A stretch of 34,400 bases of DNA from a virus. The DNA lies in IMG/VR virus record IMGVR_UViG_3300040801_004874, positions 1 to 34,400 of that record. One strand, given 5' to 3'. Position numbers and translations under genes: made by a program. This document shows, piece by piece, positions 9,266 through 13,295 of this stretch. Numbering within the stretch: position 1 is the first letter of the stretch; every line of letters begins with the position of its first letter. The notes beneath the pieces are model-generated. The model saw only the letters and a program-made list of their open reading frames with translations. It did not search any database and was not told the origin of the DNA.

Positions 9266-10758
9266 CGATCGTCCCCTGTGGTCTCCATTTCGGGCTGATT
9301 GTCAAATGCAACCTCAGCAGCTATTTCATTCTGAAATCTGTCATCGGCGTGCAAGTCTTTATCGATTACCGTCTCCATAGAGTATTCGTCACCGCCAAAC
9401 CTGCTGAGGGCTACCTCTGAAGGGGTCAGAACGCCCATCTCTAAGTATATCTTATCCGACTCAGCCATATCCCTGCGGATCTTAGCGCTTTCTAGCTCCG
9501 ACATCTGCTCGAGCGGTGTAAACTGTACCGACCATTGCTTAGGCTCTGCGCCAAAGTTATACTCTTTAGCGGCCATAACGTATTTGGCAAATTGCTTAAT
9601 AGGTGGCTCTAGCACGGCCTTTTGATAAGCGCTGATGCTGTCATACATGTTGCGCGTAGAATAGTCTCCAGAGGCGTTTAGCCCATTGGGCTCAATGCCG
9701 AACAGCATGCCCGAAGGTATCTGCACAACAGCAGATAGCCCTAATGCTATGCGGTCAAACATCTCAGGGTAGCCAGTCAGCTTAACAGCGTCCCGCTCAT
9801 ACTCCTCATCAGCATCAATAACTAGTATGTTATTGTTGCTCGATGATATTGCCATGTTGCTTACACGCGCTTGTAGGCTAGACAAGTCACTAGCCATAAT
9901 AGCCCTTAGATTAGGGCACTTCAAAACACTTTTGACCATATCATTAAATATGGTCGCAATGTTGTTAAGGCTCCCGCAATAGTTGCGTATGTAGGTGTAG
10001 CACGCCGTTAGTATACTCTCTCCCCAACTGTTATTGATAAGACGCATCCTAGGGGGATTTGTTATACCATTAACCCTTAATATCCTCTCGTTGTGCACAC
10101 GGTATATTACACCTGTCATTGGGTCAGATATATTGTATATTATGGGGTTTCCGTAGTTTGGGCTGGAAATATCGAATTCATAGGTGCCTGTAGACGAAAC
10201 GGCCTGAAACCTGTCATAGACGTGCATATAGTCAATGCGCTGTATATTGTTCCAGTCCACAGGCTCATCAGACGCCCGCCCGTCGGCTATACCTAAAAAT
10301 ATAGCTGCTCCTCCATACAACCTAGCCCACATAGCAGCCTGAAAGAGTTTTGCGCTAAAGTTCAAATCCTCCATCACCGACTCAATAATCTTATTGTCGT
10401 CGCCAAGTATGTCAAAGCCCTTCCTAAGTGCTTCGCGGGGGTATATTTCAATAATCTTTTGAGTTATAGGGTCACTGCGATACATCTGATCGAGCAAATA
10501 AGCCGTGAAATATGGATTTGGCTCGAAAAAGAAGCCCGCTTGCTTGTCGCGACCATATATGTTATTGCCCGTAATTTGGTTAACCCAATTGTCTTGGCGA
10601 ATCTTCCCGCGAGTATTTTCGGCCTGTACTTGCTTGTACGCGTCATACATAGTCGCGCCCTTAAAAAGGCCTTGGATTAGCGATGAAGCTGAATCTATAG
10701 AGATATACTTGTTATTTGCGCGGTAATGATTTTTTTGATGCTTTTTATTTTTTTTCAT
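9262..10758 (-). CDS. Portal protein, DUF1073 family
   Basis: A 498-residue protein matching the DUF1073 type of phage portal. Hallmarks are the segment MYRSDPITQKIIEIYPREALRKG (read as two parts at about 90-112), WARLYGGAAIFLG (about 144-156), PSGMLFG..P.GLNASGD (about 345-363), and a C-terminal section with EVALSRFGGDEYS. It forms the dodecameric ring at the capsid vertex through which terminase pumps DNA. The start ATG 10758 overlaps the terminase stop in ATGA. Length is normal for the family. The N-terminus is Lys/Asn-rich. Expressed with terminase and MuF in one leftward operon. Confidence 0.88.
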   Translation of the reverse strand: MKKNKKHQKNHYRANNKYISIDSASSLIQGLFKGATMYDAYKQVQAENTRGKIRQDNWVNQITGNNIYGRDKQAGFFFEPNPYFTAYLLDQMYRSDPITQKIIEIYPREALRKGFDILGDDNKIIESVMEDLNFSAKLFQAAMWARLYGGAAIFLGIADGRASDEPVDWNNIQRIDYMHVYDRFQAVSSTGTYEFDISSPNYGNPIIYNISDPMTGVIYRVHNERILRVNGITNPPRMRLINNSWGESILTACYTYIRNYCGSLNNIATIFNDMVKSVLKCPNLRAIMASDLSSLQARVSNMAISSSNNNILVIDADEEYERDAVKLTGYPEMFDRIALGLSAVVQIPSGMLFGIEPNGLNASGDYSTRNMYDSISAYQKAVLEPPIKQFAKYVMAAKEYNFGAEPKQWSVQFTPLEQMSELESAKIRRDMAESDKIYLEMGVLTPSEVALSRFGGDEYSMETVIDKDLHADDRFQNEIAAEVAFDNQPEMETTGDDR

Positions 10759-13295
10759 ATCAACCCGCGTGCCCTAGCTAATGATTTGTACACAGAATAA
10801 TCTGGCTTACGATCCAGCATGTTAAAAGCCCCTGATAACGCGTCTACCTGATCATCATGCGCACCAAGAGGGAAATTCTCAAGCTCGCTCAAAAACGCTT
10901 TGTTCCAAGGCGCTAATAGCAGCTTTACCCGACCCTGTTCGCTTGCTGCGGACACAGGCTTACATCGCCATTCCTTACTCTTCTCCGCCTTAGCGACCTC
11001 GACATTCGGGAACTCAAGATCACGCTTTAGGTAGTCACACTCAGCAATACCGCTAGCACCGCCTTCTTGCTCTAACCCTACTGTGCACGAGTATCCGTCC
11101 ATCATAGACGCGCTCTTAATCCTTTTCGCCACAAATAGAGGGGTCTCCCTAATCCTGATAACATCGAGCACATAGAATGTATCACCAGATCTACCTAGTT
11201 TAAGCCCTACAGTATAATCGGGGTCAAGTCCTTCTTTTGGTGTGGTCGCTGCCCTGTCCCAATACCTACAACATACCATGTTAATTTCTTCAGCGGGGGG
11301 AACTTTTTCAACGATTTCGAACCAGCTCTCCCTAAAGTACATACCAGCTTCACGCCGAATATTCCAATTGCCATTAAGCAGCTGCTCTCTATCGTAGCGT
11401 GGTAGGGATTTTAAGTTCGCCAAATAGCCGGGGTCATTTTTTAGCAACACCTCATTGTCATATACGCTAGAGTTGATAAACGATATTGTCTTAGCCTCAT
11501 CCCTCCGCTTTATCGGGATATGCTCTAGCTGGTCAAACTGCAATAAAGTGTCCCCATCGCGCACAGCATATCTAATCGCCCCTGATCTTTCTTCCCTTGG
11601 CAAACCATCGCTACCAATCCACCAGTCCACAAGGTCACGCACGAAACCCTCAGTTTGAGGGTTGCATGTAGCTCTGATATATGGGCGCACACCGCACATA
11701 GAGCGGTTACGCGAGAACATGTACGTAAACTGTGTCTCCGTAAAATGTGTCAGCTCATCAAAGAAAATTCCGCAGTTCCTTGAAACAAGCCCTGACTCTG
11801 TGATATAGTGAGAACACGATTCTATCGTGATAGGAATTATTTCACATAATCCAAAGGGTTCACATTTTAAAAGATCAACGCTATATAGGACTTCCGCACA
11901 ATGTTCTTCATCCTTATACGGGTGGACATACCGCAATAAAGGATGGTTACATTTGGGAACTTTGCCCAGATCATCCGAAGGCTGAGAGATTCGGATTCGT
12001 GGCGCAGCATAGACTTGTTGTTGAAAGGAATCTTGGTCGTTATCTTTTAGATGATGAAGTTGTTCATCACATAGATGAGAACCGGAAGAACAATAAGATT
12101 GAGAATCTTCAGGTTGTTTCGAGGTCTGAGCATAGAAAAATTCATTGCCTTCAGAACAGACTTCGAAAGAATGGTTCTTTTGATAATGCAGAGGTAGACC
12201 GCATGTTGCGAGAGCAGGGGTTGAAAAAAACTGCGCAAGCATTGGGAATGTGTTCATCAAACCTTCGGTTGCGATATCCAGACATTGTAAAAAAGTACAC
12301 CAGAAAGTCGCCTCAGAACCCATATTGCCCAGAACTTTCAAAAAAGATTGCTCCACTTGCAGCAGACGAGAAGATAGGTCTTCGTGAGGCTGCAAATGCT
12401 CTTGGGATCTGCATATCGACTGTTTCGAGGTGCTGCAACTTTTATGACATAAAGTGGCGTAAGAAGTCAAAGGTTGGTGAGACTCACTCAAAATATGAGA
12501 AGAGTCAGCCAAGGTATCATGATCACCCGAATGCGATTGAGGCTGTAAAGCTTCTTGCTGCCGACACAAATCTTTTGATTTCTGAGAAGGCTTCAATTCT
12601 TCGAATTTCCAGCTCAGCTTTTTTGGGTCTATGTGCAAAGTTTTCTGTTGTGAACAAGATCCGCGGTAGGGACTCTGGCAAGCCAGTCGTTGACCTAGTT
12701 CAGCCGATGCTAAAATTCTATGGTCGAGACTGCATACTTGGAGCAATTCTTTGCCAGAAAATATTGCTATACACTCTTCTACTCGAGGCTCGCATACTCT
12801 TAAAACTTTTTTTGGGCCATCAAGAGTCATTACTTCGTCTCCGACGCGGATATCTCTTAGGTAAACGAGATCTCCCGAAGCGGTATATACGCGTGTGTTA
12901 GAAGCATCACAAAATTGGCTTCCCTGAAATTGGTTCTTATCTTTCTCATGTGCAAGAGAGTGAAAGCTTATGCACGCGCCAGAAGGGAATTTCCACTTAG
13001 ACCTAGATATGTTATCGTAACCGCCCATCTTAGGGTATATATCCGACGCTAACGCCCATAAGCCCCCCGGGTCAAAAATCTGCTTATAGTTACGTCTGAA
13101 TATTCCACACGTGTAGTTGGGTATGTTCTTGTGTCGTAGAGACTCTAGGATAATGCCGTATGTTTTGCCCCCACCCGCTGCGCCTCCATATATACATAGA
13201 TCTGCGCTAGACGATAAAAACTGCTCTTGCTTACCTCTTTGCGGTCTAAGTGACTCTAGATTACAAGGCCGTCTGCTCTGACAAAACGATGACAT
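10755..13295 (-). CDS. terL: Terminase large subunit interrupted by an intein
   Basis: The packaging motor ATPase-nuclease. The 846-codon frame consists of an N-extein (1-128), an intein (129-507) and a C-extein (508-846); the mature enzyme would be 467 residues, typical of the family. The P-loop GGAAGGGKT is at about 37-45. After splicing, QGSQF joins CGIFFDELTHF, giving Walker B with catalytic Glu at residue 514 of the precursor. The nuclease domain carries YWDRAAT (about 678-684), EQEGGASG (about 742-749) and HDDQVDAL (about 812-819). The +1 extein residue is Cys, as class 1 splicing requires. The start overlaps the end of the preceding gene by 35 nt; an internal start would damage the Q-motif region, so ATG 13295 is kept. 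A HNH gene lies on the opposite strand within the intein. Confidence 0.92.
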   Translation of the reverse strand: MSSFCQSRRPCNLESLRPQRGKQEQFLSSSADLCIYGGAAGGGKTYGIILESLRHKNIPNYTCGIFRRNYKQIFDPGGLWALASDIYPKMGGYDNISRSKWKFPSGACISFHSLAHEKDKNQFQGSQFCDASNTRVYTASGDLVYLRDIRVGDEVMTLDGPKKVLRVCEPRVEECIAIFSGKELLQVCSLDHRILASAELGQRLACQSPYRGSCSQQKTLHIDPKKLSWKFEELKPSQKSKDLCRQQEALQPQSHSGDHDTLADSSHILSESHQPLTSYATLCHKSCSTSKQSICRSQEHLQPHEDLSSRLLQVEQSFLKVLGNMGSEATFWCTFLQCLDIATEGLMNTFPMLAQFFSTPALATCGLPLHYQKNHSFEVCSEGNEFFYAQTSKQPEDSQSYCSSGSHLCDEQLHHLKDNDQDSFQQQVYAAPRIRISQPSDDLGKVPKCNHPLLRYVHPYKDEEHCAEVLYSVDLLKCEPFGLCEIIPITIESCSHYITESGLVSRNCGIFFDELTHFTETQFTYMFSRNRSMCGVRPYIRATCNPQTEGFVRDLVDWWIGSDGLPREERSGAIRYAVRDGDTLLQFDQLEHIPIKRRDEAKTISFINSSVYDNEVLLKNDPGYLANLKSLPRYDREQLLNGNWNIRREAGMYFRESWFEIVEKVPPAEEINMVCCRYWDRAATTPKEGLDPDYTVGLKLGRSGDTFYVLDVIRIRETPLFVAKRIKSASMMDGYSCTVGLEQEGGASGIAECDYLKRDLEFPNVEVAKAEKSKEWRCKPVSAASEQGRVKLLLAPWNKAFLSELENFPLGAHDDQVDALSGAFNMLDRKPDYSVYKSLARARGLI
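11780..11809 (+). promoter_or_regulatory. Promoter candidate inside the intein C-terminal block
   Basis: TTGAAA (11780-11785), 18-nt spacer, TATAGT (11804-11809), each 5 of 6 to consensus, pointing at the antisense HNH gene. It lies within the codons for intein block G, starting five bases from the intein-extein boundary (11775), so it would travel with the element. Confidence 0.5.
11815..11829 (+). promoter_or_regulatory. Inverted repeat at the predicted HNH transcription start
   Basis: CACGAT-TCT-ATCGTG, a perfect 6-bp inverted repeat, covers the expected +1 region of the 11780-11809 promoter. It could be an operator that represses the nuclease gene or a 5' stem-loop. It is also constrained by intein coding on the other strand. 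Confidence 0.35.
11999..12901 (+). CDS. HNH endonuclease encoded antisense within the TerL intein
   Basis: A 300-codon frame (GTG start) lying wholly inside the intein DNA on the opposite strand. Residues 4-50 carry the HNH signature: HRLVVERNLGRYL, EVVHHIDENRKNN, IENLQ, SEHRKIH. Three helix-turn-helix-like repeats follow (about 78-92 AQALGMCSSNLR, 128-142 ANALGICISTVSRCC, 196-212), probably for DNA recognition. The last 70 residues are hydrophobic/Arg-rich and are simply antisense to the intein N-terminal splicing domain. Family-like sequence also continues upstream of GTG (GYIWELCPDHPKAERFGFV, from 11945), with no ATG, GTG or TTG before an in-frame stop at 11831; ATT at 11951 has AAAGGA 7 nt before it. 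Of roughly 70 codons ending TT, CT or TC, none is followed by a codon starting with A, which keeps the TerL strand free of stops; Arg after such codons is always CGN. Likely a homing nuclease for the intein allele. Confidence 0.8.
   Translation: MAQHRLVVERNLGRYLLDDEVVHHIDENRKNNKIENLQVVSRSEHRKIHCLQNRLRKNGSFDNAEVDRMLREQGLKKTAQALGMCSSNLRLRYPDIVKKYTRKSPQNPYCPELSKKIAPLAADEKIGLREAANALGICISTVSRCCNFYDIKWRKKSKVGETHSKYEKSQPRYHDHPNAIEAVKLLAADTNLLISEKASILRISSSAFLGLCAKFSVVNKIRGRDSGKPVVDLVQPMLKFYGRDCILGAILCQKILLYTLLLEARILLKLFLGHQESLLRLRRGYLLGKRDLPKRYIRVC

Follow-up and report, generated by a model that had tools for sequence, protein, structure and literature searches.

The DNA analysed here is a 34.4-kb virus record (IMGVR_UViG_3300040801_004874, positions 1 to 34,400; hereafter the window), which belongs to a tailed virus with contractile-tail genes, including those for tail sheath, baseplate hub, portal and major head protein. 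Our subject is its gene for the terminase large subunit (TerL), located at 10755-13295 on the minus strand. The gene has 846 codons including an insert and is assigned by PHROG 979 (E 1.5e-133) as well as by Pfam Terminase_6N and Terminase_6C. The insert is an intein at 11775-12911 (minus strand), and the complementary strand of the same DNA holds an HNH endonuclease frame, which extends from stop to stop over 11834-12901 (plus strand) with 355 codons plus the stop. Judging from sequence comparison and structure models, this arrangement very probably represents a mobile viral-terminase intein with a homing endonuclease encoded on the intein's own complementary strand.

The intein comprises 379 amino acids from Cys1 to Asn379, followed by a Cys in the +1 position, and corresponds to residues 129-507 of the TerL frame. 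It separates an N-extein of 128 amino acids with the Walker A side (12912-13295, minus strand) from a C-extein that starts with CGIFFDEL, the Walker B motif (10758-11774, minus strand). When the intein is removed, the joined exteins align to intein-less TerL proteins without a gap at the junction, which gives the site QGSQF^CGIFFDEL beside Walker B. The initial annotation had described a 379-codon intein with a Cys start, blocks A, B, F and G and a final Asn followed by Cys, and all of these features were confirmed, together with profile matches to the PI-SceI and gp41-1 inteins. The residue-1 nucleophile, the block B His, the terminal Asn and the +1 Cys are all present, and C1, T6, H64, Y369, G374 and N379 are invariant across 35 inteins of the family described below.

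In the AlphaFold2 model a confident Hint fold is formed by residues 1-70 and about 327-379. The N-terminal Hint half (12702-12911, minus strand) reaches pLDDT values of 94-97 up to residue 60 and 76 at residues 61-70. The C-terminal half with blocks F and G (11775-11933, minus strand), which is also supported by comparison with mini-inteins, rises from 68 to 97. Most of the linker between them (residues 72-310) stays below 50 and is predicted to be disordered; the overall pTM of the intein and HNH models is low (0.42 and 0.45). Foldseek relates the intein model to the splicing domain of PI-SceI (E down to 1.7e-4) and to mini-inteins, with PI-SceI domain I and the gp41-1 intein as matches of the N-terminal half. 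Profile and fold searches found no nuclease in the frame of the window intein, and no nuclease family was found in 35 intein frames, which in the family profiles match essentially Hint domains only. Together with the disordered linker, this upholds the earlier claim that the intein frame itself encodes no nuclease domain, and structure comparison, which could have uncovered a hidden one, gave none. All sequence and fold features tested identify the TerL insert as an intein, which would be removed from the protein by splicing.

On the opposite strand, the HNH signature that had been noticed from the letters alone is real. The frame matches Pfam HNH_3 (3.6e-11) and phage HNH PHROGs; its length had been underestimated at 300 codons. 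The catalytic motif (HRLVVERNLGRYL..EVVHHID..NN..ENL..EH) lies at 12005-12136 (plus strand, residues 58-101) and is followed by a helical region with helix-turn-helix repeats at 12185-12451 (plus strand). This region forms helices in the model and is also indicated by helix-turn-helix Pfam families, which match 22-27 of 32 family members and in the window copy are represented by RWP-RK only (0.0012). All 16 residues that are invariant in the 32-member family are kept in the window, and the catalytic residues H78, H79, N87, N91 and H100 are invariant. The 300-codon version had started at the GTG at 11999-12001 (plus strand), the first canonical start codon of the frame. This start is questionable: homology begins near codon 26-37, upstream of the GTG at codon 56, and its use would remove the conserved N-terminus. 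The confident part of the HNH model (residues 34-210, pLDDT about 84-98) lies antisense to the disordered linker of the intein, and its low-confidence tail lies opposite the N-terminal Hint half. By motif, the antisense product is an HNH nuclease, for which cleavage of DNA would be the expected activity.

Keeping both strands open leaves a clear mark on codon usage. Counted from the GTG, 72 HNH codons (85 in the full frame) end in TT, CT or TC, and none of them precedes a codon beginning with A, as had been estimated before with about 70 such codons. Arg codons following them are indeed always CGN; elsewhere Arg codons are a mixture of AGR and CGN and not AGA or AGG alone, as had been stated. 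Synonymous permutation of the HNH codons predicts 14.8 +/- 2.6 stops in the window's intein frame and a sum of 585 for the 62 family loci, and the observed number is zero in both cases. In the converse permutation, in which only the intein protein of the window is preserved, 12.2 +/- 2.5 stops are expected in the HNH frame; the observed zero is here partly a matter of definition, as the frames were taken from stop to stop.

To define the family, we used a DNA pattern of the intein C-junction. Its strict form gave no matches, whereas relaxed patterns led to four loci (L012, L017, L018 and L020), all of them TerL inteins with an antisense HNH frame. Further members were collected by HNH search and by the intein motif NHY[IV]xxxG..[NS][KR]N, which is blind to the other strand. 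After removal of identical copies and addition of the window, L012 and L078, the set contained 65 complete TerL inteins. All 62 inteins with a length of 311-398 amino acids carry an intact antisense HNH frame in the same phase, so that the search for such frames at the same place in related phages, as suggested in the initial annotation, had a uniform outcome, and a broken antisense frame beside a persisting intein was not found among them. HNH_3 was detected in 32 of the 32 antisense proteins tested. The remaining three members (L109, L133 and L092) are mini-inteins of 147, 148 and 178 amino acids, which consist of little besides the two Hint halves and have no antisense HNH. The nuclease frame is therefore missing only where the whole linker is missing too, and the mini-inteins at the same sites would fit either loss of the nuclease or an ancestral state. 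Within the family, the intein occupies one of two sites next to Walker B, QGSQF^C.. or QGSQVPLL^CFDEL, which are separated by about three residues.

Some members deserve a separate remark. In the longest intein of the family (L170:624-1817, 398 amino acids), the antisense HNH has additional residues that separate its HNH motif from the helix-turn-helix part, and the window intein, the second longest, has a similar extension. Besides its antisense-HNH intein, one TerL (L086:2421-4616, minus strand) contains a second, mini-intein-like insert without nuclease (NPGGSGH^CVPYGLVRT...SGN^S). In another one (L020:2399-4147, minus strand) about 80 residues are missing just after the intein in comparison to L012 (ELTQHPTPF is joined to FIPATL), which could be a deletion or an assembly fault.

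Evidence for selection on the HNH protein comes from codon positions in 24 distinct gap-free inteins of equal length. In the parts that encode the intein only, diversity is lower at intein codon position 2 than at position 3 (0.119 and 0.486 in the 5' flank, 0.025 and 0.294 in the 3' flank). In the HNH overlap the order is reversed (0.284 and 0.114), and this reversal is repeated in other clades. As intein position 2 corresponds to HNH position 3, the shift of variation indicates that the HNH protein is under purifying selection. Substitution counts in ten disjoint close pairs agree with this. There are 197 HNH-silent changes (2.44 times the expectation), 67 changes that alter the HNH and are silent in the intein (0.82 times) and 62 changes that alter both proteins (0.46 times), and no substitution creates a stop in the intein frame. 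Relaxed selection on the HNH had been named beforehand as an observation that would refute the proposal; position reversal and substitution classes point to strong purifying selection instead. Changes that are silent in the HNH and alter the intein occur at a rate of 21.9 per 1000 weighted opportunities, below the rate of silent changes in the intein-only flanks (50.8), which suggests that the intein frame is probably constrained as well.

These data also bear on two other explanations of the antisense frame. Long antisense frames can arise through codon bias in GC-rich genes, and the frame could accordingly be a by-product of codon usage and not a gene. We reject this extremely improbable explanation on the basis of the HNH_3 match in the window and in all tested relatives, the GC content of 0.35-0.63 in the loci listed, the codon permutations and the flip of codon positions. 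Alternatively, the cut could be the work of a nuclease gene at another locus, with the antisense HNH as a passenger. Such collaborative homing, in which the nuclease is a separate one, has phage precedents (PMC10448857). However, a passenger would not be expected to remain intact in 62 of 62 inteins, to evolve under purifying selection and to be lost only together with the whole linker, so that we consider this scenario very improbable.

The intein itself is mobile among the relatives. Many pairs among the 24 have intein DNA that is 95-98% identical next to exteins with no more than 67-75% identity, which goes down to 37-51% at extein third positions; 270 of the 276 pairs are more alike in the intein than in the extein. 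Joined exteins used as a query retrieved 80 TerL loci, none of which contains intein DNA. Several of these empty loci are closely related to intein-bearing ones (L104/L179, L106/L251, L140/L227 and L147/L217), with 92-96% identity over 1.8-3.0 kb across the site and few or no gaps. Near-identical inteins in diverged TerL genes and closely related alleles without intein thus directly show the mobility assumed in the initial annotation. In addition, identity to the nearest empty allele drops to 0.77 in the 18 nucleotides before the site compared to about 0.91 farther away; here, intein-bearing alleles mostly read AATTTA and most empty alleles AACCTC. A dip of this kind is the trace that a short conversion tract from break repair would leave, and we read it as the scar of this process. 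The Roseobacter phages CRP-13 and CRP-9 have a TerL close to that of L012 (terL 78% identical to the L012 exteins), with no intein in the match. A correlation of HNH, Hint and TerL distances among distant representatives (r 0.67-0.84) was left aside, as it mostly reflects shared deep history.

The same comparison speaks to the idea that the antisense HNH serves the phage and not homing, for example by aiding terminase cutting or packaging like HK97 gp74. In line with this idea, the HNH is always located inside terL, and terminase-adjacent HNH proteins are known to assist packaging (PMC10448857). On the other hand, closely related intein-less phages have no HNH in the fetched locus save for four of 80, a mini-intein genome (G007) has no family HNH, and the element moves horizontally with conversion at the junction. 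A role in the service of the phage is therefore, in our view, only a distant prospect. The four intein-less loci set apart here (L202, L233, L234 and L247) have a nearby frame of 187 amino acids with weak similarity to the HNH family (E 1e-6 to 1e-8), possibly a free-standing relative.

How would the nuclease gene be expressed? In the family, a sigma-70-like promoter sequence lies antisense to blocks F and G in a near-constant register. Three members (L012, L110 and L124) contain a perfect TTGACA-16-TATAAT with an upstream TG, and the promoter-like score exceeds that under synonymous resampling (10.03 versus 9.45, z 3.8). The window has TTGAAA-18-TATAGT with an extended -10 TG at 11780-11809 (plus strand), inside the intein, upstream of the HNH frame and near the family register; with 10 of 12 matches, it is not significant alone. 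Between 8342 and 21588 of the window, terminase, portal and several tail genes are on the minus strand, and the genes for major head protein, protease, baseplate hub, primase and helicase are on the plus strand. Given these opposed orientations, plus-strand transcription through terL is conceivable. For translation, an ATG is available close to the beginning of 60 of the 62 HNH frames, in the relatives 62-98 nucleotides from the intein 3' end, and one further frame has a GTG.

Several points weigh against the proposed function of the HNH gene. The window has no ATG, GTG or TTG at the start position of the family, and the C-terminus of its HNH frame reads through Hint DNA as far as intein residue 4. 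Within the family, a Shine-Dalgarno-like motif precedes only 23 of 62 HNH starts (8% expected by chance), and the promoter match is partly or even largely forced by the conserved NHYI..GLIN residues. As the signal is dictated in part by the protein sequence, we count it as suggestive only. The best match of the HNH model in the PDB, I-HmuI, is not significant (E 0.16). Moreover, single-protein searches of viral contigs gave nothing useful as close relatives of the window HNH or TerL, so that selection and mobility were measured on relatives and not on the window copy. The evidence base consists of metagenomic virus contigs, and its sequences are related and not statistically independent. The junction pattern found no TerL intein in genome contigs, and HNH and intein queries gave no full-length convincing member in the sequenced-phage collection or in plasmids; among isolates, none with the element came up.

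The missing start and the read-through tail suggest that the window copy may be decaying or weakly expressed. In a stricter version of this alternative, which we regard as possible but not as the probable state, the intein of the window virus still splices and its nuclease is no longer made. This would account for the absence of ATG, GTG and TTG upstream of the GTG at 11999, where relatives have an ATG, and for the unusual length of the intein with its extended HNH tail. It is opposed by the conservation of 16 of 16 invariant HNH residues over an open frame of 355 codons and, with the reservation made above about its definition, by the lack of the HNH-frame stops expected if only the intein were preserved. 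Furthermore, an ATT at 11864-11866 (plus strand) with AAAGGG at 11853-11858, located 89 nucleotides from the intein 3' end and hence inside the family range, may substitute as a non-canonical start, although this is speculative, and the promoter-like sequence at 11780-11809 could complement it.

We return to the antisense HNH as the probable homing enzyme of the intein. Read in the TerL sense, the two Hint halves would splice the intein out, with a disordered linker between them. Read in the opposite direction, the DNA of the linker, together with the adjoining margins of both Hint halves, encodes an HNH nuclease with helix-turn-helix repeats. Its likely promoter lies antisense to the C-terminal splicing motif (NHYI..GLINKN), and being inside the intein, it would travel with the element. 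The nuclease is proposed to cut intein-less terL at the site adjacent to Walker B, and repair from an intein-bearing genome would copy the whole intein into the cut allele. Direct support for this model is provided by both frames being intact, selection on the HNH, conservation in the same phase, transfer, empty alleles and the conversion scar; protein splicing, antisense transcription and cleavage of terL by the HNH are the steps that we infer. Homing by an opposite-strand nuclease, as put forward in the initial annotation, is hence supported by comparison for the family, with the HNH as the presumed homing enzyme, and not for the window copy, which lacks a canonical start. The element may have arisen when an HNH gene became inserted into a mini-intein in reverse orientation.

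The general assumption is that an intein either has an in-frame endonuclease or is a mini-intein that lacks a nuclease. Canonical homing inteins such as PI-SceI and the TerL inteins of mycobacteriophages (PMC5050341) share with the present element the Hint domain, the insertion into an essential protein at one of its ATPase motifs and the movement into empty alleles, but their nuclease domain is part of the intein's own frame. As the nuclease of the TerL element is not in frame but on the other strand, opposite a linker predicted to be disordered, the element is not a canonical homing intein. HNH homing endonucleases of the I-HmuI type from phage group I introns resemble it in the HNH motif and a DNA-binding C-terminal part; however, they are carried by an RNA intron and not by an intein with a nuclease overlapping a translated frame on the other strand. 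Fractured genes and split inteins with a free-standing endonuclease (Dassa et al. 2009, cited in PMC6892783) resemble the element in that the endonuclease is translated apart from the splicing domain; their host gene is reportedly divided into several pieces. TerL and intein form one continuous frame at 10755-13295 (minus strand), which the nuclease gene overlaps, and the element is thus not a fractured gene.

The closest published precedent that we found is the ShiLan domain, an HNH hidden inside methylase genes of phages (Arsenault, Gosselin and Gogarten 2025, PMC11855218). In both systems the HNH uses a frame different from that of the host gene, and the insertion that holds it is free of stops and moves among phages that have diverged. 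ShiLan, in contrast, has no splicing domain, few examples are known, and its HNH is on the host strand, as we read the term "third frame". The TerL element differs by an antisense nuclease within a Hint intein, an essential host gene and more than 60 members. That no described case was known to the initial annotation agrees with the literature searches, which gave same-strand out-of-frame HNH inserts and no antisense intein nuclease; they did not cover the text of a preprint by Gosselin et al. (bioRxiv 2025.01.02.630785) on actinobacteriophage inteins of "non-canonical architecture", whose title and citation in PMC11855218 for overlapping frames hint at related arrangements. Priority is for this reason uncertain.

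Scanning of the host frame only would class inteins of this kind as nuclease-free. In this family, antisense dual coding occurs naturally and repeatedly and selection on it can be measured, and the closely related empty and occupied alleles make homing directly testable. The family shows that the drive of a mobile element can reside on its complementary strand, where roughly 220-355 codons are kept free of stops on both strands in very diverged phages. Antisense placement offers a way to regulate the homing nuclease apart from the host gene. We think it somewhat probable that these elements form a widespread class of phage inteins with the splicing domain and a homing nuclease driven by its own promoter on opposite strands, in which the C-terminal splicing motif would double as antisense promoter and the timing of the nuclease would be separate from that of terL.

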